A DNA stretch of 64,000 nt, taken from positions 620,001 to 684,000 of the forward strand of contig JABTUW010000003.1 in NCBI GenBank assembly GCA_015075185.1, in the 5' to 3' direction. Shown in pieces: positions 5,687 to 33,003 of this stretch. The translations under genes were made by a program, and so were the position numbers. This DNA is from Anaerolineales bacterium. GTDB lineage: Bacteria; Chloroflexota; Anaerolineae; 4572-78; J111. Position 1 is the stretch's first letter, and each line of letters starts with the position of its first letter. Under the pieces are notes generated by a model that ran no database searches, was not told the DNA's origin, and saw nothing but the letters and a program-made list of their open reading frames with translations.

Positions 5687-7387
5687 CTCTCCCTCATTCT
5701 CCTCCTCTACTTCTGGGCCATTAGTCTGACCAACCTCGACCGCTTTCCCAAAATCCACGAGGATGAGTCATGGCAGGCTGCGCCGGGTTATACTTTCTGG
5801 GCCGAGGGCCGCTTTGGCACGGACCTCTTTGCCGGATTTTACAGTATGGAGCGGCACTACTACGGCTTTATGCCTCTCTTTCCCATCCTGGTCGGCGGCG
5901 CGCTGCACCTGTTCGGGTTGGGACTTTTTCAGGCCCGGCTCATCCCCCTGGTGCTTATGACTCTCACCCTGACCCTGACCTATCGTCTCGGCGCCAAACT
6001 ATTTTCACCCTGGCATGGCACGCTCGCCGTCGCCATTTTAGCTACCTGGCGTATCGCCGGCCCCTTTCCTCACCTGGTCAGCGGCATCCCCCTGGCCGAT
6101 GTTGCCCGCATTGTCCGCTACGACAGCGCCGTGCCGGTGTTTGGTTTAGCGGCATTGCTGCTTCTGGTTCATATTCTGACCGCTGACCACCGAAGGCGAA
6201 GCTTCCCCTTGGGACCGGAGACTGGAAACCGGGAACGTATAAAATTCACCATTCAGAGCCAAAGGGCCCCTGTGGGCAATTCACCATTCACAATTCACCA
6301 TTTTTTCTTCATCGGCCTTCTCACTGGACTTGCCACTCTCAGCCACGTTTACGGGATTTTTTGGCTGCCGGCGCTGCTCCTGGCGGCGTTTTGGGTTTTG
6401 GGCTGGCGGATTGTCAAGCCGGCCCTTGTCGCCGTCTTCGGTTTCGGTCTGGCTTTAACACCCTGGCTTATTTTTGTTGCCTCCGCTTGGAGTGACTTTC
6501 TGGGACAAAATCGCAACTATGTCGGCCGCTTCGGCCTGCTGGATGGCCGCTTTTACCTCATCAATCTGCTCAATGAGGTTGAACGCTACGATCCGATCTT
6601 GAATGGCGCCAAACAATCCTTTGGGGCGTGGGTGTGGCTGGTTGGGGTGAGCTTGAGCTTAGCTTGGATAGTCGCCAACAGCCAACGCTTGCCGGCCCCC
6701 GGCCCCCGGCCCCCGGCCTCCGCTCTTTCGTTCCCCGCCATTTCAACCCGGATTTTAGTGGCCGTTTTAGCCATCCTGAGTGGTCAGTTTGCCCTGCTGC
6801 TCTCCTTCAAAACCTTCGGCTACCTGGCTACCCTCTGGCCGCTGTTTGCTCTGATTATTGCCGCTGGCTTTATTCATGCCTGGCAAGCGCCGACTCCCCG
6901 GTGCTGGTGGCGGCCTGTCCTCAGCCTGTTATTTCTTTTAGCCATGATTGAAGGTATTTTTACCCAGGCTCGCCTCCAACTTTTGGCTCAACCGATGACT
7001 CCATACCAAGTTTTTAGCCAAGCTGTTGCGGCTAAACTGCCGCCGCAGAGTCGAGTGCTGGGCTTGCAGCATTACTGGCTGGGCCTGGCCCAACACAACC
7101 AGGCTTATCATAGCATTTTGGTCCCTATTTTTTGGACTAATCCCCACTACGTGTCCCGGCCGCTTTCGTTTGCTCAAGCCCTGCAAACCGACCCGCCCCA
7201 AGTTATCTTGTTGGATCAAATCATGCTCGACTTTTTAACCGAAACGACCGCTCCCGATCACCCCTTGCAACAACTCGGCCTGGATATTTGGGCCTATTTG
7301 GCGGAGCGACAGGCCAGGCTGATCGGCCGGGTGGATGATGCCACCTATGGGCGGATGGAAATATACCAATTGACCGCCGACCACTGA
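5621..7387 (+). CDS. GT39/ArnT-like membrane glycosyltransferase
   Basis: This 588-residue polytopic membrane protein resembles the GT39/GT83 (PMT/ArnT) families: an early acidic motif after the first helix (FPKIHEDESW, about 43-52), then a periplasmic loop and HYYGFMPLFPILVGG, followed by many transmembrane helices and a soluble C-terminal part. These enzymes use polyprenyl-phosphate sugars outside the membrane. Two parts are encoded by mini-repeats: the first 20 or so residues (TTTTACG words, 5631-5686) and residues about 187-228 (GACCGCTGACC and TTCACCATTCAC words, 6178-6305). The annotated ATG may therefore not be the native start; the conserved fold begins near residue 22. Confidence 0.8.
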   Translation: MSLYRTYPSRFTFYVLRSTPYLLSLILLLYFWAISLTNLDRFPKIHEDESWQAAPGYTFWAEGRFGTDLFAGFYSMERHYYGFMPLFPILVGGALHLFGLGLFQARLIPLVLMTLTLTLTYRLGAKLFSPWHGTLAVAILATWRIAGPFPHLVSGIPLADVARIVRYDSAVPVFGLAALLLLVHILTADHRRRSFPLGPETGNRERIKFTIQSQRAPVGNSPFTIHHFFFIGLLTGLATLSHVYGIFWLPALLLAAFWVLGWRIVKPALVAVFGFGLALTPWLIFVASAWSDFLGQNRNYVGRFGLLDGRFYLINLLNEVERYDPILNGAKQSFGAWVWLVGVSLSLAWIVANSQRLPAPGPRPPASALSFPAISTRILVAVLAILSGQFALLLSFKTFGYLATLWPLFALIIAAGFIHAWQAPTPRCWWRPVLSLLFLLAMIEGIFTQARLQLLAQPMTPYQVFSQAVAAKLPPQSRVLGLQHYWLGLAQHNQAYHSILVPIFWTNPHYVSRPLSFAQALQTDPPQVILLDQIMLDFLTETTAPDHPLQQLGLDIWAYLAERQARLIGRVDDATYGRMEIYQLTADH

Positions 7388-7431: not shown

Positions 7432-9525
7432 TTGAACTTAAAATCGAAAATCGAAAATACCCAGTGGGCACGCTGTCGAAAATCCAAAATCCAAGATTGG
7501 CTCCCCTGGTTGGCCCTGTCGCTGATCATTGTCGGCCAGCTCAACTACCTACCGGCTCGCCTCGACTTTTTGTACCAGCTTGGAGTCTTGGCTCAGGCAG
7601 ACGTGCAAGATGCGACTCGCCTGGCTTACGGAGCAGCCAGCTATAATTTGCTGGCCTGGGTTGAGCAAAATACGACTCCTAACACGACCCTGTTGCTGCT
7701 TACCACCAGTCCCCAGACCTACGGCGATCCGGTTTATGTCCTCTACCACCGCGCGCTCTATCATTTATACCCGCGCACCGTCTGGTGGGCTGCCCCGGTC
7801 CCTCCGACCCGCTACCCGGCCTGGTGGACCTTCACCGATTTGACCGAAGTCAATATTCTGGCCCTGGCCCAAAAATACTATGCCTCCGCCATTTTGGCCG
7901 ATGGCTTTACCCGGCCGCCCATCCCTGGCCAGGTTTTGGTTTTTGACGCCGACACCCAGCTTATTTTTATCAAAACCGGCGGCCAGAAACCGCTCACTTT
8001 TCAGCCCTCCGACGCTGCCCCATCCTTATCTCCATTCGGTCTGTTCCTGCGGGCTTTGGGAGCCATCCTCTCTATCTGGCTGTGGGGTGATGCCTTGTCC
8101 GGGGCAAACCGCAACGGAGGCGCTTCCTCCTGGCCTCGACGCCTGGCCGCGGGCTGGCTGCTGGGTTGTGGGCTGACTTCGCTGGCCGTGTTTATCTTGT
8201 TGTGGGCCGGCCTATCGCTGACAGTCGCCGTCAGCAGCCTGAGTTTGCTGGGCGGCTTACTCTGGCTCTATCTCCACTGGAAAAACTTTCACTCCCTCTC
8301 CCTGCCCCTCTGCTCTCCCCGTCTGGCGCTTCGCGCTGGCAGCCCCCTGCTTTCTTTTCCTCGCTTCCCCGCCTCTCTCTCTTCCCTCTTCCTTGCTCTG
8401 ATCCTGCTCCAGGTTGGCCTTGTCGCCTTCGCCGCCTGGGCCAGTCCTCTCGCCGATTGGGACGCCTGGGTCAATTGGGCCAGCAAGGCCAGGGCCATCT
8501 TTATTGATCAAACCCTCTCACCTGCTCTATATCACAACCTGGCCCGCCTGCCGACCAATCAGGATTATCCTTTAATGCTGCCCCTGGTCGAAGCCTGGTT
8601 TTACACTTGGCTGGGGCAAATCCACGAACCGGCGATTAATTTAATTTCACTCTTGTTTTATACTGCTTTACTGCTGCTCTTCTACCACGCCGCTCGTTTG
8701 CTCGTCTCACCCGCCGCTGCTGCCGGTTTTACCACACTCTTGGCAACTGTTCCCCGCCTGGAACGTCCCGCCTCCAGCGGCCTGGCCGATATACCTTTAG
8801 CGGCCTTAGTATTCTTATCATTCTTGTTATTATTTGAGATTTTCATAACTTGGCCTTCTGACAACCACTCTCGCACTCTCCTCCGCTCCCCCCGCCTGGC
8901 GCTCCGCGCTGGCAGTCTCCTGCTCGCTTTATCCCTCTCCACCGCCTTCCTCCCCTGGTTCAAAAACGAAGGCTGGTTGTGGTGGATAGGGATCACTCTT
9001 TCGCTGGGGGTGGGATTGGCGCTGCAAATCAGGCGAAAACACCTCTCACGGCATGAAGCTGTTGTTTGTTTTCTGCTTTATATCACCCCTACCCTGGCGC
9101 TACCCCTGCTGTGGCAGCTTTTTTTGATCCTGTTTGGGGCCTACCGTTTTACCTTTTTACCCTTGACTCTCGCCACTTTTTGGACTAATTTACCCCGGCT
9201 GCCGCTGATTGGCTGGCACATGCTCATCCGCTTGTTGAATCCTTACTGGAATTTTGTCTGGTTGTTTGCCGGTTTAATTCTTTTGAGCAGGAGGCAACGA
9301 ATTTTGTCGGCCCCCTTAGGTTGGCTGATTTTGCCGGGGTTGGGCTACTTGGGGGTTATCAGTATTTCTTTTGTGTTCAGCCGGTTTGACCCTTTTCTGG
9401 ATCATCTCAACAACTCCGCCGAGCGGCTCATCTTGCAGGCAACACCCTTGCTGGTCTGGTGGCTGCTGGGCCAAAGTGTGGCTGCCGGCTGGGTACGGGC
9501 AAAATCCGAAGAACTTTTGAAGTAA
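7432..9525 (+). CDS. Large polytopic membrane protein, probable glycosyltransferase
   Basis: This 697-residue protein has a long soluble N-terminal part (about 50-190) and about a dozen membrane helices. The motifs SPLADWDAWVNWASKA (about 339-354) and SSGLADIPLAALVF resemble GT39-like transferases of Chloroflexota, so polyprenyl-sugar transfer is the best guess. The TTG at 7432 lies in a mini-repeat (AAAATCGAAAATC words), and the first 20 or so residues look repeat-derived. Two further insertions encode the same peptide, SPRLALRAGS, at about residues 293 and 485. The gene overlaps nothing and precedes the PHP gene by five bases. Confidence 0.7.
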   Translation: MNLKSKIENTQWARCRKSKIQDWLPWLALSLIIVGQLNYLPARLDFLYQLGVLAQADVQDATRLAYGAASYNLLAWVEQNTTPNTTLLLLTTSPQTYGDPVYVLYHRALYHLYPRTVWWAAPVPPTRYPAWWTFTDLTEVNILALAQKYYASAILADGFTRPPIPGQVLVFDADTQLIFIKTGGQKPLTFQPSDAAPSLSPFGLFLRALGAILSIWLWGDALSGANRNGGASSWPRRLAAGWLLGCGLTSLAVFILLWAGLSLTVAVSSLSLLGGLLWLYLHWKNFHSLSLPLCSPRLALRAGSPLLSFPRFPASLSSLFLALILLQVGLVAFAAWASPLADWDAWVNWASKARAIFIDQTLSPALYHNLARLPTNQDYPLMLPLVEAWFYTWLGQIHEPAINLISLLFYTALLLLFYHAARLLVSPAAAAGFTTLLATVPRLERPASSGLADIPLAALVFLSFLLLFEIFITWPSDNHSRTLLRSPRLALRAGSLLLALSLSTAFLPWFKNEGWLWWIGITLSLGVGLALQIRRKHLSRHEAVVCFLLYITPTLALPLLWQLFLILFGAYRFTFLPLTLATFWTNLPRLPLIGWHMLIRLLNPYWNFVWLFAGLILLSRRQRILSAPLGWLILPGLGYLGVISISFVFSRFDPFLDHLNNSAERLILQATPLLVWWLLGQSVAAGWVRAKSEELLK

Positions 9526-17686: not shown

Positions 17687-20644
17687 TCAATCTACAATCG
17701 GATCAAGATTGCTAATTTTGGCCGCCGTTTGTTCAACCAGTTGTTCGATGTCTGTCGGCAGGAAAGGTTTGGAGAGCCAGGCCAGGCCGGATTTTTCCAG
17801 GAAGATGCGGGTGTCCATGTCAACGGTATTGCCGGTTATAAAGATGAAACGATTCGCCAGGAAGGGGAATTTCTCGATGGCTTTTTGGTAAAGGTGCGGG
17901 CCAAGGATGTCAGGCATAAGAACATCACACACGATCAGATCGTAGCTGTTCCTCTCAAGTTTTTGCAGGGCAGTTTGGCCGTCTGGCGCAGTTTCAATCG
18001 TATGACCTCGATGAGTAAAAATGAGCCGGAGTAAGTTCAAGAGGGCTGGCTCGTCGTCTATAGCTAAGATTCTGAGCGAACTGGAAAATGCCGGCGCTAC
18101 AGGTGCAGCCACTTCCGGGCTGGGAGCAGTCGCGACGGGTGGAGTTTGGATGGGTAGTTCAACATAAAAGGCAGCTCCGCCGGTGGCTACATTTTCAGCC
18201 CAAATGCGCCCTTTATGCTCGCTAATGATGCCAAAGCAAATGGATAGACCCAATCCCGTGCCCTCGCCAACCTGCTTGGTGCTAAAAAATGGGTCAAAGA
18301 TACGGCTGATATGATTGGGAGGAATCCCCGGCCCGTTATCGGTAAAACTTACCAGGATATGATTTTCCTCGCGTTGGGATTCGATGGTTAACAGGCGGGG
18401 GGATGGGATGGTGGCCAGGGCATGAATGGCGTTGGTGATTAAGTTAACAAAAACCTGCTCCAATTGGTGCGGGTCGGCCATAGTGGGCGGCAGTCCGGAA
18501 TCCAGTACGGTTTTAAGCTGGACGGCATTCGCCTGGAGCTGTGACGCTACCAGAGTCGTACTGCCGGTAATAATCTCGTTGAGGTCAACTTCTTGCGTCT
18601 CTAGCTCAAAGCGGCGAGCAAAGGTCAGCAAATCACGGACAATTAATCTGGCCCGCTGGGCTTGGCGGAAAATGACATTCAGATCAGCCTGTGTTTCGGC
18701 CGGCAAATCGCTCTGCTGCAAGAGGCTGGAATAGCCAATAATGCTCGTCAGCGGATTGTTCAGTTCATGGGCCACCCCGGCCACCAGTTTGCCAATCGCG
18801 GATAGTTTCTCGGTTTGCTGGAGCTGCTGCTCTAGCTCGCGGCGATGGGTAATATCGCGGGCAATACCGTGAATACTGACCGGCCGGCGACCCTCCCGCC
18901 GAACCCGAAGAGTCACTTCTAACAGGATTTCACGTTTGTCTTTTCCCGCAATTGCGAGTTCAAAGGGAGCAAGGAACTCGGTCGAAGCCAGATGGGCCTT
19001 GAGCAATTGATAAAGCGCGGGAAGTTGCTGCGCCGAGATAAATTGAGTGATCGGCGCGCCAATCACTTCCTCAAGCTGATAACCGCTTGTTTTTAAAATA
19101 ACTTTGTTGGCGCTGCTAATCCTGAAATTACTGTCCAGAGTAAAGATAAAATCATTGGCATTATCAAAAAGGTCACGATAGTTGGCCTCGGCCGCGCGGA
19201 TTTCGGTAAACAGACGAGCATTTTCCAGAGCAACGGCCAGTTCGGCGGCAATCGCGTTAAAGAGGCGCAAATCTTCATGATCAAAGGCATTAACGCGCGG
19301 GCTTTCGGCAGTAAGAACCGCCACAACCCGATTATTGGATAACACCGGCACACAAATCTCAGCCTGAGTATCGGGCATTAATTCGTAATAGTGACTGGCT
19401 TCACGCACGTTGGGCAGCAATAAGGATTTGCCATGGCGCAGTACCCAACCGGCAGCACTGCCGTGCAGGGGAATAACCGGCTCGCCGTGGTCAAAGTTAA
19501 ACCCAATGGTCGCCGGATGGGCCACAACCCTATCCCCTTCGGCTGCCGGGAGAAAAAAGCCCAGCCGCTCGATACCCAGGGTTCGGTGCAGCGCGCCAAT
19601 GGTGCCGCTGATGACCCGGTCAAAATCCAGGCTGGAAGCTGCAGCCACCATCACTTCTTGCAGAACTTTAGCTTCAGCCAGGCGGCGGGTTGCCTCGTGA
19701 TATAGGCGGGCATGCTCGATGGCTACGGCTGCCTGGGCGGCCATTGTCTCAAGCAGGCGTAGGGCTGTAACCGTAAGCTTCTCTGTACTGTGCGCCCGGC
19801 CTACTTCTACCAGGCCAATTGTCTGGCGGCGATAAATCAAAGGGATGAGAAAAAGCGCCTGGACTTGAAGGTTTTCCAACCAGGCCAGTTCTTCCCCCTG
19901 GGCGGTACCGGTTTCGAGTATGCCGGGAGCCTGCGCCGCCAAAGCGGAATAGGGAAACGAACTTTTGGTCAGGGGACGCACCAGTTGTTCCAGACGTTTC
20001 CCCCCCGACCTGACATAACTCTGTATGGTACGGAGTTGGTTTTCTTCTTTTTCCCAGTAAGAAATCAGGCATAGATCGGCCTTAAACGCCTCCACCATTT
20101 GCCGGCTGACCGCATCTAATACAGTTTCCAGGGCCAAGTCCGAGGTGATGATGGCCATGGACTCAAATAACAAAGCTTGTTCTTCGGATCGCTGGCGAGT
20201 TTCGGCCAGCAGCCGGGCGTTTTCAATTGCCAGGGCCGCGTGATCGGCGATAACGCTGAGCAGCTTTAACCCGTTATCACTCAGATAATCCGGGTTCATA
20301 TTCATCAACTCGATCACCCCGATGGTGTGACCGTTGGCTCGCAGTGGAACGCACATAATCGAGTGAGTCTGAAAGCCGCTGCGTTCGTCAAAGTTTTTGT
20401 AAAAACGGACATCATGGTTGACATCAGGGATGAGCGCCGGTTTTTCGTGAGCCATCACCCAACCCACCACCCCCTTGCCGGCTGGCAAACTCAAGCCGCG
20501 AACCGCATCAGCCCCGGCCCCTACCGCCGCTCGAATCACAATTTCCTGGCCCGAAGGTTCCAGCAAAGCGACCGATCCCGCCTCTGCTTCAAATATTTCG
20601 TTGGTGCGCGTGATAACCTGACTTAGAACCTCTTGCAAATCCAT
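17687..20644 (-). CDS. Multi-GAF hybrid sensor histidine kinase
   Basis: This 985-residue cytoplasmic kinase has three GAF domains in tandem (about 1-150, 165-310 and 335-480), a PAS domain (about 490-610), HisKA with the acceptor in GVAHELNNPLTSIIGY (about 637-652), HATPase (NLITNAIHAL, DNGPGIP, GEGTGLGLSI) and a C-terminal receiver (LAIDDEPALL, acceptor Asp in LIVCDVLMPD, WLSKPFLP). GAF domains usually bind cyclic nucleotides, haem or small ligands. The ATG at 20,644 begins directly at the first GAF helix, so a longer N-terminus is not needed. No partner regulator is adjacent. Confidence 0.9.
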   Translation of the reverse strand: MDLQEVLSQVITRTNEIFEAEAGSVALLEPSGQEIVIRAAVGAGADAVRGLSLPAGKGVVGWVMAHEKPALIPDVNHDVRFYKNFDERSGFQTHSIMCVPLRANGHTIGVIELMNMNPDYLSDNGLKLLSVIADHAALAIENARLLAETRQRSEEQALLFESMAIITSDLALETVLDAVSRQMVEAFKADLCLISYWEKEENQLRTIQSYVRSGGKRLEQLVRPLTKSSFPYSALAAQAPGILETGTAQGEELAWLENLQVQALFLIPLIYRRQTIGLVEVGRAHSTEKLTVTALRLLETMAAQAAVAIEHARLYHEATRRLAEAKVLQEVMVAAASSLDFDRVISGTIGALHRTLGIERLGFFLPAAEGDRVVAHPATIGFNFDHGEPVIPLHGSAAGWVLRHGKSLLLPNVREASHYYELMPDTQAEICVPVLSNNRVVAVLTAESPRVNAFDHEDLRLFNAIAAELAVALENARLFTEIRAAEANYRDLFDNANDFIFTLDSNFRISSANKVILKTSGYQLEEVIGAPITQFISAQQLPALYQLLKAHLASTEFLAPFELAIAGKDKREILLEVTLRVRREGRRPVSIHGIARDITHRRELEQQLQQTEKLSAIGKLVAGVAHELNNPLTSIIGYSSLLQQSDLPAETQADLNVIFRQAQRARLIVRDLLTFARRFELETQEVDLNEIITGSTTLVASQLQANAVQLKTVLDSGLPPTMADPHQLEQVFVNLITNAIHALATIPSPRLLTIESQREENHILVSFTDNGPGIPPNHISRIFDPFFSTKQVGEGTGLGLSICFGIISEHKGRIWAENVATGGAAFYVELPIQTPPVATAPSPEVAAPVAPAFSSSLRILAIDDEPALLNLLRLIFTHRGHTIETAPDGQTALQKLERNSYDLIVCDVLMPDILGPHLYQKAIEKFPFLANRFIFITGNTVDMDTRIFLEKSGLAWLSKPFLPTDIEQLVEQTAAKISNLDPIVD

Positions 20645-22384: not shown

Positions 22385-24028
22385 ATGCTGAGTCGTATCT
22401 GGCAAGTTATCTGGGGACGCCCAGAACCAAAAACAGAGCCAGGGCTGCCCTCGTTGCCAGTTCAGCCGGTGTTACACCCGGCAGTAACCTCCTTTGAAAT
22501 TGCCCCAGGCGACCCGCTGCTTGATTTTTTCCAGCATAATTCGGAGGCGGTTGAACTGGCCAAGCTGAACCTTGACTCTCCGGCGTTGCAGGCGCTTCGT
22601 GCGGCCGGGGTGCAGTTGGTGGCCCCCCTGGTGGGCCAGGGTGAACTGATTGGCCTGCTCAACCTCGGCAAACGCCGGAGCGAGCAGGATTACTCTATTT
22701 ACGACCACAAGTTGTTGGAGAGTCTGGCCTCCCAGGCCGCCCCGGCCGTTCGCGTTGCCCAACTGATCCGCCAACAGCAGCGTGAGGCGCAGAGTCGGGA
22801 GCGTTTTGAGCAGGAGTTGCGGGTGGCCCGGCTCATCCAACAAACCCTTTTGCCCAAGGAGGTGCCCCATCTGCCCGGCTGGCAGATAGCCGCTTTTTAC
22901 CAACCGGCGCGGGCTGTCGGCGGCGATTTTTACGATTTTCTGACCTTCCCGGATGGCCTGGTCGGACTTATCATTGGCGATGTAACCGATAAAGGTGTGC
23001 CGGCGGCCCTGGTAATGGCTACGACTCGCAGTATTCTGCGCGCTGCCGCCGAGGTCCTGGTCTATCCGGGCCAGGTCCTGGCCCGAGCCAATGAACTGCT
23101 CCACGCCGACATTCCGCCCAAGATGTTTGTTACCTGCCTCTACGCTCTCCTCGACCCGGTCAGCGGGCGGCTGCGCTACGCCAACGCAGGCCACGATTTA
23201 CCTTACCGGCGTCAGGTCAACGGTGTTGAAGAACTGCGAGCAACAGGAATGCCGTTGGGCTTGATGTCTGGGATGCGTTACGAGGAAAAAGAGACCGTTC
23301 TGGCTCCGGGAGAAACGATGTTACTTTATAGTGATGGGATCATCGAAGCCCATAATCCTCGCCACGAAATGTTTGGCTTCCCGCGCCTGCGGGCGCTTCT
23401 GGCCGGGCATGGGGGTGGGGTGGGCTTGATTGATTATTTAATGACCCAATTGGCTGAATTTACCGGCCTCGGTTGGGAACAAGAAGATGATGTGACGATG
23501 GTTATTTTGCAGCGTGTCCCGCCGCCTACCATTGCCCAGATTCAGTCCCAGGCGCGCCAGGTGAATGCCCGAACCACCCTGCCCTGGCGTACCTTAGCCG
23601 AATTGTCGCTGCCCAGCGAGGTCGGCAATGAGCGTGAAGCAATGCGCCGGGTGAGCCAGGCCGTGCAGGGGTTATCTTTAGCCAGTTCTACCCTGGAAAG
23701 ACTAAAAACAGCCGTGGCTGAAGCCACGATGAATGCGATTGAGCACGGCAACAAAAACCGGCCTGAGCTGCCGGTGTTCATCCAGGTCCAGGCCTCACCC
23801 CAGGCGCTCTTGGTACGCATCACCGACCAGGGGGGCGGCCAACCCATCCCCGAGCCAGAAGCGCCTGATTTGGAGGCAAAACTGGCCGGCTTACAAACAC
23901 CGCGCGGATGGGGGCTGTTTTTGATTAAAAACCTTATGGATGAAATGTATGTCATCAGCGATGATACTCATCACACCGTTGAATTAATTCTTTATCTGGA
24001 GGCCGAAAAAAATGTCAGCCAAACCTAG
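22385..24028 (+). CDS. GAF-SpoIIE phosphatase-HATPase (RsbU/RsbW-type) protein
   Basis: The 547-residue protein joins a divergent GAF-like domain (about 40-135), a coiled linker, a PP2C-type SpoIIE phosphatase domain (about 150-380, with VGGDFYDFL, GDVTDKGVPAAL and LLYSDGIIEAHN as metal-binding motifs) and a C-terminal HATPase of the RsbW anti-sigma kinase type (VAEATMNAIEHGN, ITDQGGG, GWGLFLIKNLMDE). One chain could thus dephosphorylate and also phosphorylate STAS antagonists. Its stop overlaps the next gene by 17 bases, which encodes just such a STAS protein. Confidence 0.92.
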   Translation: MLSRIWQVIWGRPEPKTEPGLPSLPVQPVLHPAVTSFEIAPGDPLLDFFQHNSEAVELAKLNLDSPALQALRAAGVQLVAPLVGQGELIGLLNLGKRRSEQDYSIYDHKLLESLASQAAPAVRVAQLIRQQQREAQSRERFEQELRVARLIQQTLLPKEVPHLPGWQIAAFYQPARAVGGDFYDFLTFPDGLVGLIIGDVTDKGVPAALVMATTRSILRAAAEVLVYPGQVLARANELLHADIPPKMFVTCLYALLDPVSGRLRYANAGHDLPYRRQVNGVEELRATGMPLGLMSGMRYEEKETVLAPGETMLLYSDGIIEAHNPRHEMFGFPRLRALLAGHGGGVGLIDYLMTQLAEFTGLGWEQEDDVTMVILQRVPPPTIAQIQSQARQVNARTTLPWRTLAELSLPSEVGNEREAMRRVSQAVQGLSLASSTLERLKTAVAEATMNAIEHGNKNRPELPVFIQVQASPQALLVRITDQGGGQPIPEPEAPDLEAKLAGLQTPRGWGLFLIKNLMDEMYVISDDTHHTVELILYLEAEKNVSQT

Positions 24029-24368
24029 TAATGTCAGAGTCCGTCACCAGGGTAGCATTTCGATTGTTGACTTGCAGGGGGAAATTAATGCTACCCTGGA
24101 AGAAGCATTAAAGAGCGCCTACGCCGAAGCCATTGCGCCAAATCCGAGCGCCATTTTACTTAATCTGAGCGATGTGGAGTATATTACCAGTACTGGGATG
24201 GCTGTCCTGGTCGGGCTACTGGCCCAGGCGCACCAGGCCAATCGTCGTCTGGCGGCATGTGGCTTAAATGAGCATTATCGCGAAGTTTTTCAAATCACAC
24301 GGATTACAGATTTTATGGAAATTTTTCCTGATGAGGCCACTGCCTTAAATCAGTTGGTGAGGAGCTAA
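24012..24368 (+). CDS. STAS-domain anti-sigma-factor antagonist
   Basis: This 118-residue single STAS domain has the phosphorylatable site in LSDVEYITSTGMAVL (about residues 53-67), as in SpoIIAA/RsbV. It should switch partners with the HATPase domain of the upstream protein. The start lies inside the 3' end of the phosphatase gene, indicating translational coupling. Confidence 0.92.
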   Translation: MSAKPSNVRVRHQGSISIVDLQGEINATLEEALKSAYAEAIAPNPSAILLNLSDVEYITSTGMAVLVGLLAQAHQANRRLAACGLNEHYREVFQITRITDFMEIFPDEATALNQLVRS

Positions 24369-24376
24369 GAACAACG

Positions 24377-24724
24377 ATGTCTCAAGCTAAAGTCGTAATG
24401 GCCGGCCGGCAGATAAATGCCCAGATAAGCGCTATTGACATTCAAGGTGAGGTAACCGCTACGGCCGAAGATATGCTCATGGAAGCGTACAATCAGATTG
24501 GCACGGCGCGGACCATTATCCTGAATTTCAGCGGGTTAGAGTATATGAACAGCAGCGGGATTGGCTTACTGGTGACGCTGCTCATCCGGGCTAATCGCCA
24601 GGGACAGCATCTGGTCGCCGTCAACATGAGCGAACATTACCGCCATATTTTTGATTTGACCGGCTTGAATCAGGCTATTGCCATTTATGATACCGAAGCC
24701 AATGCGCTGGCTGAAATAAGTTAA
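24377..24724 (+). CDS. Second STAS-domain anti-sigma-factor antagonist
   Basis: The 115-residue paralogue of the preceding gene follows after eight bases. Its site reads LEYMNSSGIGLL, again with Ser at the phosphorylation position. Two different antagonists behind one phosphatase/kinase suggest graded or branched partner switching. The target sigma factor is not in this window. Confidence 0.92.
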   Translation: MSQAKVVMAGRQINAQISAIDIQGEVTATAEDMLMEAYNQIGTARTIILNFSGLEYMNSSGIGLLVTLLIRANRQGQHLVAVNMSEHYRHIFDLTGLNQAIAIYDTEANALAEIS

Positions 24725-24745: not shown

Positions 24746-25441
24746 GTGGGTGGATTGACACGCCAACAGATTGAGCAACGGATTACGGTACAGGGTCGCC
24801 AACTGGATTTGGCCGGGGCAGATTTGAGCGGCCTGGATTTATCCGGGTTGGATTTAAGCGGAGCTAATCTGGCGGGGGCAAACATGGCCCAAGTTGCCTT
24901 GCGTGACACTCAACTCCGCGACGTCAACTTGAACCAGGCTAACCTGCAACATGCTAACGTTAGCGAGGCCAATCTCAGCGGGGCGATGCTGAAAGGCGCG
25001 AACCTGAGCGGAGCCAATTTGAGCGAAGCTTATTTGCTCCGGGCAAATCTGACTCACGCCGATTTGGCCGCGGCGAACCTGGCCAAAGCCAAACTGGATG
25101 AAGCTGACTTAACCGCCGCTAACCTCGAGCACGCCAACCTTGATCGGGCCTACCTGGTGCGAACTAACTTGAGCCAGGCCAGCCTGAGCCAGGCTAATTT
25201 GGCCGGGGCCAACCTTAAGAATGCCAACCTGGCTGGGGCAAATCTGGCTAATACCATCCTGACCGAGGCGTTTTTGGAGAGCGCCAGCCTGAATGGCGCT
25301 AACTTACATCAGTCCAAGCTGACCGGGGCAACCTTTACCAAAGCAATTTACGATAACGAAACCCGGTGGCCTGCCGGCTTTGATCCGGGGGCTGCCGGAG
25401 CAGTCATCAAAAAGAAGAAGTGGCTGGGCTTGTTTGGCTGA
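24746..25441 (+). CDS. Pentapeptide-repeat protein
   Basis: This 231-residue protein consists of about 35 A(D/N)LxX repeats, forming a right-handed four-sided beta helix, and ends in a short tail with YDNETRWPAGFDP and a Lys-rich KKKKWLGLFG. The GTG start has AGAGGGG upstream. Pentapeptide proteins act as scaffolds or DNA mimics; no function can be assigned. Its position between STAS genes and the DAC fusion suggests it belongs to the same operon. Confidence 0.9.
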   Translation: MGGLTRQQIEQRITVQGRQLDLAGADLSGLDLSGLDLSGANLAGANMAQVALRDTQLRDVNLNQANLQHANVSEANLSGAMLKGANLSGANLSEAYLLRANLTHADLAAANLAKAKLDEADLTAANLEHANLDRAYLVRTNLSQASLSQANLAGANLKNANLAGANLANTILTEAFLESASLNGANLHQSKLTGATFTKAIYDNETRWPAGFDPGAAGAVIKKKKWLGLFG

Positions 25442-25484: not shown

Positions 25485-28451
25485 ATGAGCTTGACGCGGT
25501 TGTGGAAAAATGAAATGGACGAGCAGGCCAAGAATTTAAATCAGGTCTTGCTGGCGGCAATGGATACCTACGCCGAACGCACCTGTTTTCAGGTAAAACG
25601 GGATAAGGGGTATCAAAATATTTCCTACCGGCGCTTTCAGGCGCTGACATTCCGCCTCGCCCGCTTTCTCCAGAGCCACCATATCTCCAATGGCGAGCGG
25701 GTCGCTATTGCTACCCATAACTGCCTGGAGTGGATGGTCGTCTACATGGCTACTCTCCTGGCTGGTGGGGTAGCCGTACCTCTCCGCCCCTCGGTTGCGC
25801 CGGATAGATTTCGTTTTACCCTTCAAGACTCTGGAGCCAGCCTGGTCGTTTTGGCCGATGAGCAGCTCCTGCGCGACATCACGGCCCTGCTGACCAGCAC
25901 CGATAATCCTTTTCCCCATTTAAAGACTATTCTGATGGTGAACGAACTGCCGGAAACAGCCTTCCCCACAGTTTTGCTGAGCCAAATTCTGACTGAAGCG
26001 GAGTTGTTGTCTGAGGAACAAGAGGCGCTGCGTCTGTATGCGCTCAGCACTCCCCCTGAAACCCTGGCGGCTATTTATTACACGGCCGGCGGCACCGACC
26101 GGCCTAAGGGGGCTGTCTTTGATCACTACCGGCTTTTAGCCAGTATGCGCCATTTGCGCGGGTTGAACCTCGATGAGGATGAGTTAGGCTTTACGGTTGT
26201 GCCCTGGGGGTTTGCCGCCAGCCTGTCCGTGGCGCTCCACTATTTTATATCGGGGGTAGCCAATGTAATTGCCGGAGGCGAAGAGTCTGTCCCGGAGGTG
26301 ATGCAGCAGACCAGTCCAACGGTGAGCCTCAATATGCCTTACTTCCTGGAACGTTTTTACGAGGAAGTGATGGAGATGGTGGCGCAGATGCCCGAAGCCA
26401 GCCGCGAAGTCTTTCAGTGGGCGGTGGCCAAAGGCCGCGAGTTCCACGCCGCCGGCCCGGCCGCCTCGGCCGAACTGCGTGAAGAGTATGCCCGGGCCGA
26501 CATGACTTTTTTCAGCAGTATTCGCGGGCAGATTGGCGGGCGTCTGCGCCGTTTCTACTCGACCGGCGCGCCGTTATCCCGAAACTTGGCCGGTTTCTTT
26601 GAAGCCATCGGCCTGCCTGTCCTGGAAGTTTACAACCTGACGGAAGCCGGCGGCTTCCCGGCTATCAGCCGTCTCGATGCTTACCGGCTTGGTTCCTGCG
26701 GTCAGGTCGCGCCCGGTTTTGAAATCAGGATTGCCGACGACGGCGAAGTGCTGGTCCGGGGGAATTCGCTGATGAACGAGTATTGGGGCTGGCCCACGGA
26801 GACCCAACAGGTGCTCGACGCCGACGGCTGGCTCCATACCGGCGACCTGGGCTATTTTGACCGGGATGGCTACCTTTTCCTGACCGGGCGCAAGAACCCG
26901 GTCATTGTTCTTTCGACCGGCCGCAAAGTAATGCCGGCTGCCGTCGAAGAGATGCTGATGGCCCATCCAATTATTACCGAAGCTGTGGTCTTTGGTGAAG
27001 GCCGGCCTTACGTGTCGGCCCTGCTGGTGCCTGATTTGGAAGTGCTGGTCGAGCATCTCCAGCCGGATGAGGCCCAGGAAAATGAAGACCTGCTGACCGT
27101 AGGGCCGCCCACGACCACCCTCAAATGGTTCTGGCAGCAGGATAATGAAGCCGGGGAACCGGTCAATACCACCGCCCACCCTCGGGTCAAGGCTTTGTTT
27201 GATAGTGTGGTGGTGCAGGTTAACAGCCGGCTGGACCGCTGGGCCAGGATTGAAAATTACAGCCTGTACGACCAGGCTTACAGCGAGGCTGCCAATGAGC
27301 TGGCCCGCCTGCGGCTGCACGAGCGCCATAATCTGGCTGAACGCTATGCTGCCCAGGTCAAGTCCATGTATCCGCCTGCCCCACAACTGATGGAAAAGGA
27401 AATTACCCAGGTTCACGTCAACCCGGAACGGATGCGCGAACTGCTGGAAAAGGAGAGCATGCTCGATGCCTGGCTGGCCGATGCTGGCATTGAGTTTCTG
27501 TTCAACCTGGCCCGGACCAAGCAAATTGATGCTCCCTCGATGGTCCATATTTGCGATGTAGCCGCCAGTATTGCCCAGATGGAGAACGAGGCCAAGCCGC
27601 TCTCGACGGCCTTAATTGTGGGCGACCCGGCCCGGATCAACCGCATCTTGACCCGCAGCGAAATTCGGCTGCTGCGCTGGGATCACATTCGCCGCATGCG
27701 CAATATTTTGATTACCCTGGCCAAAATGGTGGATGGGCTGGTGCTGGGTTACGTGGTAGATAAGCACGGCTATGTGCGGGGTATTCGCAAGCTGAAATTG
27801 GACGAGCCGCTGGATGATCCGGCCAATATGCTGCTCGGTCCGCAGTTTCGCCGCCACGCCACTATCTCGCGGCTGTGTGATGCCGTCGTCTTTTTTGTCC
27901 CGGCCCCGGGCCGGCAGGTCCGCGTGTTTGCCGAGGGGCAACTGGTGGGCCGCTATTCCAACGGTGACTGGTCGCCGGAAAGCATGACCCATGTGAGCCA
28001 GGTACTCGCCCAATTAGCCAAGCGGCGGGATTATGATTTGGCCCTGATCCGGCGGGTGCTGCGCTGCGCGTTCCAAATGTCGGAGGAAAACCTGGGCGCG
28101 ATCTTTTTGCTGGGCGAGGCCAATGTGATTATGGAACATTCCGATGCCCCGGAAATCAGCTCCTTTGCCGCCATTGTCAGCGCCGACGTGCAGCAGTTGA
28201 CCGACCGCGAGCTGATTAATTTTGCCAAGCAGGATGGGGCGACGGTGATTGACGTGCAGGGCCAATTTCGCGGCTGCATGGTCCTGCTCCGGCCCAATGC
28301 TAACACCCAGGCCGATATCGGCCTGGGCAAAGGCGCGCGCCACAGCAGCGCCGCCAAAATGAGCGCCGAAGCCCAATGCCTGGCCATCACTGTCTCCCAG
28401 GATGGCCCGATTACCCTCTACGACTGCGGCCGGCGTATCTTGTCCTTGTAA
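25485..28451 (+). CDS. Acyl-adenylating (AMP-binding) enzyme fused to a diadenylate cyclase (DAC) domain
   Basis: The 988-residue protein has two ATP-using parts. Residues about 10-510 are an acyl-CoA synthetase-like AMP-binding domain: variant P-loop YYTAGGTDRPKGA (about 197-209), YNLTEAGG, WLHTGDLGYFDRDGYL (about 447-462) and TGRKN. Residues about 510-690 are a helical linker. Residues about 690-830 may be a sensor domain (GLVLGYVVDKHGYVRGI). Residues about 850-985 match DAC/DisA_N domains: LGAIFLLGE, LINFAKQDGATVID (DGA about 916), GKGARHSSAAKMSAEA (RHR motif as RHS, about 952) and ITVSQDGPITLY. The expected product is c-di-AMP, if active. An alternative ATG lies at 25,515. The 3' end overlaps a convergent gene by 34 bases. 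Confidence 0.85.
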   Translation: MSLTRLWKNEMDEQAKNLNQVLLAAMDTYAERTCFQVKRDKGYQNISYRRFQALTFRLARFLQSHHISNGERVAIATHNCLEWMVVYMATLLAGGVAVPLRPSVAPDRFRFTLQDSGASLVVLADEQLLRDITALLTSTDNPFPHLKTILMVNELPETAFPTVLLSQILTEAELLSEEQEALRLYALSTPPETLAAIYYTAGGTDRPKGAVFDHYRLLASMRHLRGLNLDEDELGFTVVPWGFAASLSVALHYFISGVANVIAGGEESVPEVMQQTSPTVSLNMPYFLERFYEEVMEMVAQMPEASREVFQWAVAKGREFHAAGPAASAELREEYARADMTFFSSIRGQIGGRLRRFYSTGAPLSRNLAGFFEAIGLPVLEVYNLTEAGGFPAISRLDAYRLGSCGQVAPGFEIRIADDGEVLVRGNSLMNEYWGWPTETQQVLDADGWLHTGDLGYFDRDGYLFLTGRKNPVIVLSTGRKVMPAAVEEMLMAHPIITEAVVFGEGRPYVSALLVPDLEVLVEHLQPDEAQENEDLLTVGPPTTTLKWFWQQDNEAGEPVNTTAHPRVKALFDSVVVQVNSRLDRWARIENYSLYDQAYSEAANELARLRLHERHNLAERYAAQVKSMYPPAPQLMEKEITQVHVNPERMRELLEKESMLDAWLADAGIEFLFNLARTKQIDAPSMVHICDVAASIAQMENEAKPLSTALIVGDPARINRILTRSEIRLLRWDHIRRMRNILITLAKMVDGLVLGYVVDKHGYVRGIRKLKLDEPLDDPANMLLGPQFRRHATISRLCDAVVFFVPAPGRQVRVFAEGQLVGRYSNGDWSPESMTHVSQVLAQLAKRRDYDLALIRRVLRCAFQMSEENLGAIFLLGEANVIMEHSDAPEISSFAAIVSADVQQLTDRELINFAKQDGATVIDVQGQFRGCMVLLRPNANTQADIGLGKGARHSSAAKMSAEAQCLAITVSQDGPITLYDCGRRILSL

Positions 28452-31189: not shown

Positions 31190-31723
31190 ATTACTCGTTG
31201 GTCAACCCTCAAAAAGCGTTCCGCCTTACCGACCATTCTTGGGATAGCGGCAGTTGTCTTTGCCCTGGATCAGCTTACCAAGTATTGGGTCGTCCAAAAC
31301 ATCCCTGAGCAAAGCTCGTGGAGTTTCTTCCCGGCCTTAGCCAAAATTTTTCAATTTACCTTTCTCAGAAATACCGGCGCAGCTTTTGGCATGTTTCCCC
31401 AACTCGGCGGTGTTTTTATGGTTATCGCCGTCGTGGTCATCGCCTCGATTGTCATCTTTTACCACCACCTGCCCACCTATAATTTCTGGGTACGGCTGAG
31501 CCTGGGGCTGCAATTGGGCGGTGCGCTCGGCAATCTGGTGGACCGCATCAACCGGGGCTTTGTGGTAGATTTTGTGGATATTGGCTTTTGGCCCATCTTT
31601 AACCTGGCCGACTTATCCATTGTGCTCGGGGTGGCGATTTTAGCCTATTTTCTGTGGAGTGAAGAACAATCTTTGGAGCAGGTCGAAAAATCTTCCAACC
31701 TGCCCGAGGGAGGCAATCTATGA
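31190..31723 (+). CDS. lspA: Lipoprotein signal peptidase (signal peptidase II)
   Basis: The frame encodes a 177-residue four-helix membrane protease: ALDQLTKYWVV in the first part, LRNTGAAFGMF, then the catalytic aspartates in NLVDRINRGFVVDF and FNLADLSIV. It removes signal peptides from prolipoproteins such as the one encoded at 54,976. No ATG, GTG or TTG is in frame between the upstream stop (31,157) and the first conserved residues. AAGGAG (31,175-31,180) stands nine bases before an ATT at 31,190, so initiation at ATT is proposed. The next ATG, at 31,391, would remove the DQ motif. Confidence 0.88.
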   Translation: MTRWSTLKKRSALPTILGIAAVVFALDQLTKYWVVQNIPEQSSWSFFPALAKIFQFTFLRNTGAAFGMFPQLGGVFMVIAVVVIASIVIFYHHLPTYNFWVRLSLGLQLGGALGNLVDRINRGFVVDFVDIGFWPIFNLADLSIVLGVAILAYFLWSEEQSLEQVEKSSNLPEGGNL

Positions 31724-32076: not shown

Positions 32077-33003
32077 ATGTCTCCAGCACAGCCCCTTTAC
32101 CTACAAGTTGACCAACCCGCCGCACGCCTGGATCAATGGCTGGCCCAAGCCATCCCCCAGCTTTCCCGCTCACAATTGCAGAAATTGATTCGCCAGGGCC
32201 AGGTCTTGGTCGCCGGCCGGCCGGTCCGACCCAGTGCCGCCCTTCAACCCGGCGATGTCGTCACCGTTCACCTGCCCGCGCCCGAACCGGCTGCTCTCCA
32301 GCCGGAGACGACGCCGCTCGACGTTGTCTATGAGGATGACGATCTGGTCGTGATCAACAAGCCGGCGGGAATGGTCGTCCATCCGGCGCAGGGACACAGC
32401 CGCGGCACCCTGGTCAATGCCCTGCTGGCCCGCTACCCGGATTTGGCCGGCCTGGCGGAAGATGACTCCGGCGCAGCCGACCGGCCCGGCATCGTTCACC
32501 GGCTGGACCGGGATACTTCCGGGCTGATGATCGTCGCCCGCACTCCGGCGGCACTGCGCCGCTTGCAGCAGCAGTTCAAAGCCCGAACCGTCGAGAAGAT
32601 TTACCTGGCCCTGGTCTTTGGCCGGCCCGAAGCCGCCGAAGGCATCATTGACGTTCCCCTGGGACGTGACCCCCGCTTTCGCCAGAAAATCGCCCCCCGG
32701 TCCGACGGAAAACCTGCCCGGACCCACTACCGGGTCATCGAGGATTTTGGCGCTTACAGCCTGCTGGAAATCGGCCTGGAAACGGGCCGGACCCACCAGA
32801 TCCGGGTTCACCTGGCCTGGCTCAAATGCCCGGTAGTCGGCGATACGGTTTACGGCCGCAAAAAGAACGTCCTCGGCCTGAAGCGGCAGTTTCTCCACGC
32901 CTGGCGGCTCGCCTTCCAGCACCCCCGCACGGGTGAAACCATCCAGTTGGAAGCGCCGCTCGATCCTCATTTGCAGGCTGTTTTGGGGCAGCTCAGGAGA
33001 TAG
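32077..33003 (+). CDS. rluD: Large-subunit rRNA pseudouridine synthase (RluD family)
   Basis: The 308-residue enzyme has an N-terminal S4 RNA-binding domain (about 12-70, RLDQWLAQAIPQLSRSQLQKL) and a catalytic domain with HRLDRDTSGLMIVA (about 144-157), where the Asp is the nucleophile. VNKPAGMVVHP and GRTHQIRVHLAWL are also RluA/RluD hallmarks. It isomerises uridines in 23S rRNA helix 69 or a related site. lspA-rluD adjacency is common in bacteria. Confidence 0.92.
   Translation: MSPAQPLYLQVDQPAARLDQWLAQAIPQLSRSQLQKLIRQGQVLVAGRPVRPSAALQPGDVVTVHLPAPEPAALQPETTPLDVVYEDDDLVVINKPAGMVVHPAQGHSRGTLVNALLARYPDLAGLAEDDSGAADRPGIVHRLDRDTSGLMIVARTPAALRRLQQQFKARTVEKIYLALVFGRPEAAEGIIDVPLGRDPRFRQKIAPRSDGKPARTHYRVIEDFGAYSLLEIGLETGRTHQIRVHLAWLKCPVVGDTVYGRKKNVLGLKRQFLHAWRLAFQHPRTGETIQLEAPLDPHLQAVLGQLRR

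Follow-up and report, generated by a model that had tools for sequence, protein, structure and literature searches.

Diadenylate cyclase (DAC) domains are known in arrangements with varied N-terminal domains, and the input signals of most c-di-AMP cyclases are poorly known. Among the closest described systems, DacZ (also CdaZ) consists of one DAC domain and a pyruvate-kinase-C-like N-terminus (DACZ_N, DacZ_P), DisA carries a helix-hairpin-helix DNA-binding part, CdaA/DacA (with CdaR) carries N-terminal membrane helices, and the DACNV-DAC proteins join a predicted sensor to a DAC domain. For DisA and CdaA, a head-to-head arrangement of DAC domains has been established as a requirement (PMC8573169).

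The window, a stretch of 64,000 nucleotides from a genome of an Anaerolineales bacterium, carries a DAC domain in another setting. As the original prediction had claimed, an AMP-binding (ANL) domain and a C-terminal DAC domain lie in one open reading frame. Pfam matched the former with 175.3 bits and the latter, at residues 863-982, with 49.1 bits (E 5e-13; the cut-off is 27), a significant match within the stretch of residues 850-985 where a DAC domain had been predicted. The gene and its ANL part are laid out as follows.

25485..28451, + strand: fusion gene, 988 aa; predicted pseudo-acyl-CoA-synthetase (ANL) domain, linker and tandem DAC module
25515, + strand: alternative start, M11, 30 nt downstream, giving 978 aa; equals the start used in the sister species L033
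25563..26786, + strand: AMP-binding (ANL) core, residues 27-434; PF00501, 175.3 bits, cut-off 29.9
26082..26111, + strand: degenerate A3 phosphate-binding loop TAGGTDRPKG, residues 200-209; canonical form TSGTTGxPKG
26901..27380, + strand: ANL C-terminal subdomain, residues about 473-632; AMP-binding_C_3 match at 473-519
27300..27329, + strand: A10 region LARLRLHERH, residues 606-615; catalytic Lys absent, where ordinary synthetases have LTPTLKxKR

An AGGA precedes position 25485, upstream of the start of the longer frame; the fusion may instead start at 25515, judging from the equivalent methionine in L033. The AMP-binding_C_3 match in the C-terminal ANL subdomain reaches 47.6 bits, and the subdomain is broken by a variable, low-confidence stretch at about residues 528-564. 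The AlphaFold2 model of the whole chain, built with homologues, has a pLDDT of 82.1 and a pTM of 0.76, and that of the last 349 residues a pLDDT of 85.8 and a pTM of 0.84. Structure prediction recovered both expected folds: the N-terminal part is an acyl-CoA synthetase fold (Z about 42.9, VIA-align), and the C-terminal unit is a DAC fold, matching DisA (9y4s) with Z 16.2 over 131 residues at 2.6 Å and the other DAC structures listed with Z 12 or more.

Compared to the described cyclases, the fusion shows the following likenesses and differences. First, DacZ/CdaZ is the closest DAC found by profile, sharing the GAIFxxGD and G(A/T)RHxxAA signatures and having RHx, not RHR. However, DacZ has its single DAC domain behind the pyruvate-kinase-C-like part, while the fusion has two DAC units and the ANL domain; in Pfam scans DACZ_N, DacZ_P and PK_C were absent from the window protein and from all members matched by A1, a profile built on the last 349 residues of the window protein, and present in the Chloroflexota DacZ-like protein L120. 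Second, DisA shares the DAC fold and a similar VS..xITLY end; unlike DisA, the fusion has no helix-hairpin-helix DNA-binding part, places its DAC at the extreme C-terminus and has RHS for RHR. Third, CdaA also shares the DAC fold, but where CdaA has membrane helices the fusion carries the ANL domain followed by its first DAC-like unit (Pfam, AlphaFold2, hhalign). Other Anaerolineae DAC proteins (L126:581-2710, − strand, and L127:1102-3222, + strand; 709 and 706 aa, among DAC proteins of about 700-790 aa) appear by eye to be single chains in which a canonical membrane CdaA is linked to a repeat region of CdaR/YbbR type.

Fourth, the DACNV-DAC proteins likewise have an N-terminal domain followed by a DAC with SQDG and RHL, RHV or RHR. 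Their DACNV domain, however, gives no alignment with the fusion's first DAC-like unit (0.5% in profile comparison); identification of that unit as Pfam DACNV was not supported, and DACNV was matched in 1 of 20 members, at E 0.21. The DACNV-DAC proteins L090, L091, L092, L093 and L095 have RHL or RHV (RHR in one) together with SQDG, and for L090 the Pfam DAC model falls short of E 1 despite DGA and RH, so DAC surveys based on Pfam undercount. In the literature searched, most subscription papers being outside its scope, no published ANL-DAC fusion or tandem DAC was found, and both a pseudo-acyl-CoA-synthetase input and a tandem DAC are provisionally taken as undescribed there.

The architecture is not confined to one genome. 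Full-length homologues came from a search of 298 genomes of the class, for which the whole protein was the query, and from a scan of genome contigs, for which the query was its last 127 residues. In all, at least 22 distinct fusion homologues are spread over three phyla, mostly of 945-1034 aa and with identical domain order; Pfam DAC was matched in 20 of 20 homologues. Of the 25 genomes in the order to which the window belongs (Chloroflexota, Anaerolineae), A1 matched 13, and some of these carry two or three copies. It also matched 2 of 350 genomes of a phylum-wide draw (one being the window's own genome) and, at full strength, 4 of 148 genomes in the class that includes the Thermoanaerobaculia member. 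The fusion is present in two Dadabacteria genomes as well. That assembly or gene calling fused two neighbouring genes is refuted by the homologues: ten contigs and an estimated contamination of 7.35% speak for it, but many independent genomes, in more than one phylum, have the same junction, on which ground a chimaeric metagenome-assembled genome was rejected as well, and a single AlphaFold model spans both parts with good confidence. Two fusion copies, L037:3637-4685 and L035:6795-8384, are disrupted or truncated in their ANL part (with split frames, or only 529 aa long), which reflects either relaxed constraint there or assembly errors.

The tree of the C-terminal module has a midpoint root only, which falls on the far outlier L050. 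In it, the members from Acidobacteriota and Dadabacteria nest within Chloroflexota (support 91/85 and 97/97), and this nesting suggests transfer out of Chloroflexota. The mean share of the majority residue is 0.76-0.77 in the DAC module versus 0.59 in the ANL part, so selection weighs on the cyclase end. A module without ANL also exists, as a 348-aa protein on a Chloroflexota contig with its ATG at L050:7336, overlapping an upstream open frame of another register; since the module can stand alone, the functional core is formed by the C-terminal 350 residues, with the ANL domain as an accessory. The free-standing gene (L050, 7336-8384) lies between lspA and a rluD-like gene (5921-6448 and 8384-9295), and the window has an lspA-rluD pair (31391-31723 and 32077-33003) 3 kb downstream of the fusion, a likeness that is possibly due to chance. 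Outside the window's order, a 111-aa frame at G026:C31:15293-15604, with 55% identity to residues 883-986, is either a lone C-terminal DAC fragment or a contig-edge piece.

Compared to long-chain acyl-CoA synthetases, the ANL domain shares fold and domain order, and several fusion members have an LTPSMKxxR end that resembles theirs, but the A3, A5 and A10 motifs are degenerate. None of the 22 distinct fusion proteins with a readable A3 loop has TSGTTG, the A5 Tyr-Gly is changed to YS, YN or YA in all members, and the A10 lysine is variable or lost across the family; the A7 Gly-Asp is retained. As controls, 19 ordinary acyl-CoA synthetases of the same class, retrieved by the same search, had TSGTT in 19/19 (the full TSGTTG in 18, TSGTTS in the remaining one), YG in 19/19 and the A10 lysine in all 18 that reach that region. 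The window protein has neither the A3 TSGTTGxPK nor the A10 lysine of active synthetases. Because the ANL fold and A7 Gly-Asp are retained while A3, A5 and A10 are degenerate, the domain reads as a pseudo-enzyme with a kept pocket; on these motifs it is probably a ligand sensor and no longer an enzyme.

The original prediction had offered two interpretations of the joined domains, a coupling of fatty-acid activation to c-di-AMP signalling or an adenylating part used as a sensor. While the architecture and the DAC assignment held, the coupling found no support, given the A3 loop broken in every fusion homologue and the A10 lysine replaced in the window protein, and the sensor alternative is the better fit. 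A true bifunctional enzyme, in which the ANL domain makes acyl-CoA or acyl-AMP, the DAC makes c-di-AMP and activation is thereby coupled to signalling, could draw on the complete ANL fold, on A7 and on those members in which the A10 lysine is kept or conservatively replaced; with A3 and A5 altered throughout the family, it is improbable. The loss of catalytic motifs from the AMP-binding domain goes beyond the original prediction, as does a divergent DAC-like unit that spans roughly residues 699-831 and precedes the DAC domain in the C-terminal module.

27423..27578, + strand: helical start of the C-terminal module, residues 647-698
27579..27977, + strand: first, divergent DAC-like unit, residues about 699-831; hhalign to the DacZ DAC
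28038..28448, + strand: second DAC domain, residues 852-988; PF02457, DisA fold match, hhalign to DacZ
28233..28241, + strand: DGA motif, residues 917-919; invariant
28332..28349, + strand: GARHSS, residues 950-955, in place of GTRHR
28392..28406, + strand: VSQDG, residues 970-974

The second unit aligns to the DacZ DAC in hhalign with 98.8% probability, a score of 101.4 and 29% identity. The first unit aligns to the same DAC over nearly its whole length (92%, E 6e-7, score 46.8, the best of 100 column-shuffled profiles reaching 20.2) and to the second unit with a score of 30.2 versus a shuffled best of 23.0. Against canonical CdaA profiles it scored 27.8, where the shuffled best was 21.7 and an unrelated ANL piece scored 25.7, a weak result that was not counted as proof; the clear result came from the DacZ profiles. 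In comparisons with PDB folds by VIA-align, in which the second DAC filled the list, it drew weak matches to unrelated chains only (Z ≤ 4.4), an outcome that speaks neither for nor against a DAC fold. In the model of the A1 region, its elements run E69 H76 H100 E115 E124 H147 E162 E172 E180, the same order as in the second unit (E233 H240 H268 E280 E288 H312 E327 E337 E344). It has an invariant D750-G751 at the DGA position and is missing the RH motif (GPQFRRHA). Because of the DacZ and second-unit alignments and the matching element order, the first unit is called a divergent DAC copy, and support for this is good but not final.

Two tandem DAC-like units per chain, one with a degenerate site, also raise the prospect of a different product, an asymmetric pair (DG only versus DGA/RHS) within one chain adenylating something other than a second ATP, such as another nucleotide or a ligand bound to the ANL domain. 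A dimer of dimers is an equally good arrangement for the tandem, and the changed-product reading seems very improbable. We know of no precedent for such DAC pairing.

The DAC motifs lie where the original prediction had put them, at D917-G918-A919, R952-H953-S954 and VSQDG 970-974. Across the aligned homologues there is no variation at D917, G918, A919, R952, H953 or D973, and DGA, R952 and H953 are also found in the free-standing L050 protein. The third residue is serine in the aligned fusion homologues, so that the RHS of the window protein is common to them, and threonine (RHT) in L050; the canonical RHR of DisA, CdaA, CdaS and CdaM is not present in the window protein. Replacing RHR by AAA abolishes activity in MtbDisA, CdaS and CdaM (PMC3328451, PMC4568413, PMC13022847); since all three mutants are triple replacements, they do not give the role of the third residue. 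DacZ-type proteins have RHA (L120), RHT (L123) or RHH (L125, annotated as DacZ, on a Haladaptatus plasmid). In vitro, the DacZ protein of Haloferax volcanii produces c-di-AMP, while the archaeal RHx was read from the Haladaptatus protein, and a D-to-A change in the DGA of H. volcanii DacZ relieves its overexpression toxicity (PMC6741144). The original prediction had taken RHS as a reason to doubt activity. The third residue does differ, yet the doubt is weakened because RHx variants are normal in DacZ-type proteins, and RHS is weak evidence against activity; from its motifs, the second DAC unit is likely a c-di-AMP cyclase. Because the third residue varies in DacZ-type proteins, annotation that requires RHR may miss cyclases. 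Two Chloroflexota DacZ-like proteins with a PK_C-like N-terminus, L120:964-1911 (+ strand) and L123, have GLGARHAAAA and GLGARHTVAA in place of GTRHR.

A whole-genome search with a DAC model found only two DAC genes in the 9.4-Mb host genome, the fusion and the following one.

G000:C4:902401: ordinary CdaA-like DAC gene of the host, 323 aa

Given this gene, c-di-AMP supply does not need the fusion, which counts against the cyclase reading. It also favours a receptor, in which the tandem DAC would bind ATP or c-di-AMP without synthesis and act with the degenerate ANL domain as a nucleotide-controlled scaffold. The change of GTRH to GARH with RHR not intact, and the loss of the RH motif from the first DAC unit, point the same way; the DGA, R952 and H953 invariant in all homologues, L050 included, and the missing third arginine of DacZ-type proteins speak against it. 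On balance a receptor without synthesis is unlikely, though it deserves more weight than a changed product or a working bifunctional enzyme.

The preferred reading is a multidomain c-di-AMP synthase under the control of a pseudo-acyl-CoA-synthetase sensor, to which we assign a probability of roughly 55%. The ANL domain descends from a long-chain acyl-CoA synthetase; its phosphate-binding loop is lost, and in many members so is the catalytic lysine. Its pocket would most likely bind an acyl chain, acyl-AMP, CoA or an adenine nucleotide without finishing the reaction. A ligand-driven conformational change would then be relayed through the variable linker, so that the ANL ligand would control how active the second DAC unit is or how it assembles. 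With its DGA and RHx, and facing the same domain of a partner, the second unit would make c-di-AMP from two ATP. The first DAC unit probably regulates the second or sets assembly; it may pair with the second within the chain and keep it inactive, or it may build the oligomer. A more novel version is put forward tentatively: a catalytically dead acyl-CoA synthetase, serving as fatty-acyl or energy sensor, would set the output of a pseudosymmetric tandem diadenylate cyclase, possibly with intrachain DAC pairing.

If the preferred reading is true, a metabolic enzyme has been recast as a second-messenger sensor, and lipid metabolism, through an acyl ligand, acyl-AMP, CoA or nucleotide, has a direct input into c-di-AMP signalling, by which lipid or energy status may become a second-messenger signal. 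The tandem module would also bear on whether two DAC domains pair within one chain.

In the window, the fusion is the last of five tightly spaced genes on the same strand, the other four being the following.

22385..24028, + strand: GAF - SpoIIE phosphatase - HATPase protein, first gene of the apparent operon
24012..24368, + strand: STAS-domain protein (Pfam)
24377..24724, + strand: second STAS-domain protein (Pfam)
24746..25441, + strand: pentapeptide-repeat protein (Pfam)

The five-gene order is conserved in the sister species L033 only, and a conserved operon was rejected, neighbour order being kept within the genus only. Elsewhere, too, the genes next to the fusion are often regulators. 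A SpoIIE gene lies upstream of the fusion in the window and L033, in L038 (response-regulator-SpoIIE) and in L039 (MASE3-PAS-SpoIIE). Ser/Thr kinases adjoin it in L034, L036 and L052, a histidine kinase in L047 and sigma-54 activators in L048 and L049, and other fusion loci have unrelated neighbours (RNA polymerase, FtsX, radical SAM). Signalling genes are abundant in the fusion-bearing genomes; because these hold 11-21 SpoIIE matches each, the three SpoIIE neighbours are no more than suggestive. Just past the operon, on the opposite strand (17687-20644, − strand), the window encodes a protein with three GAF domains, a PAS domain, a histidine kinase and a receiver.
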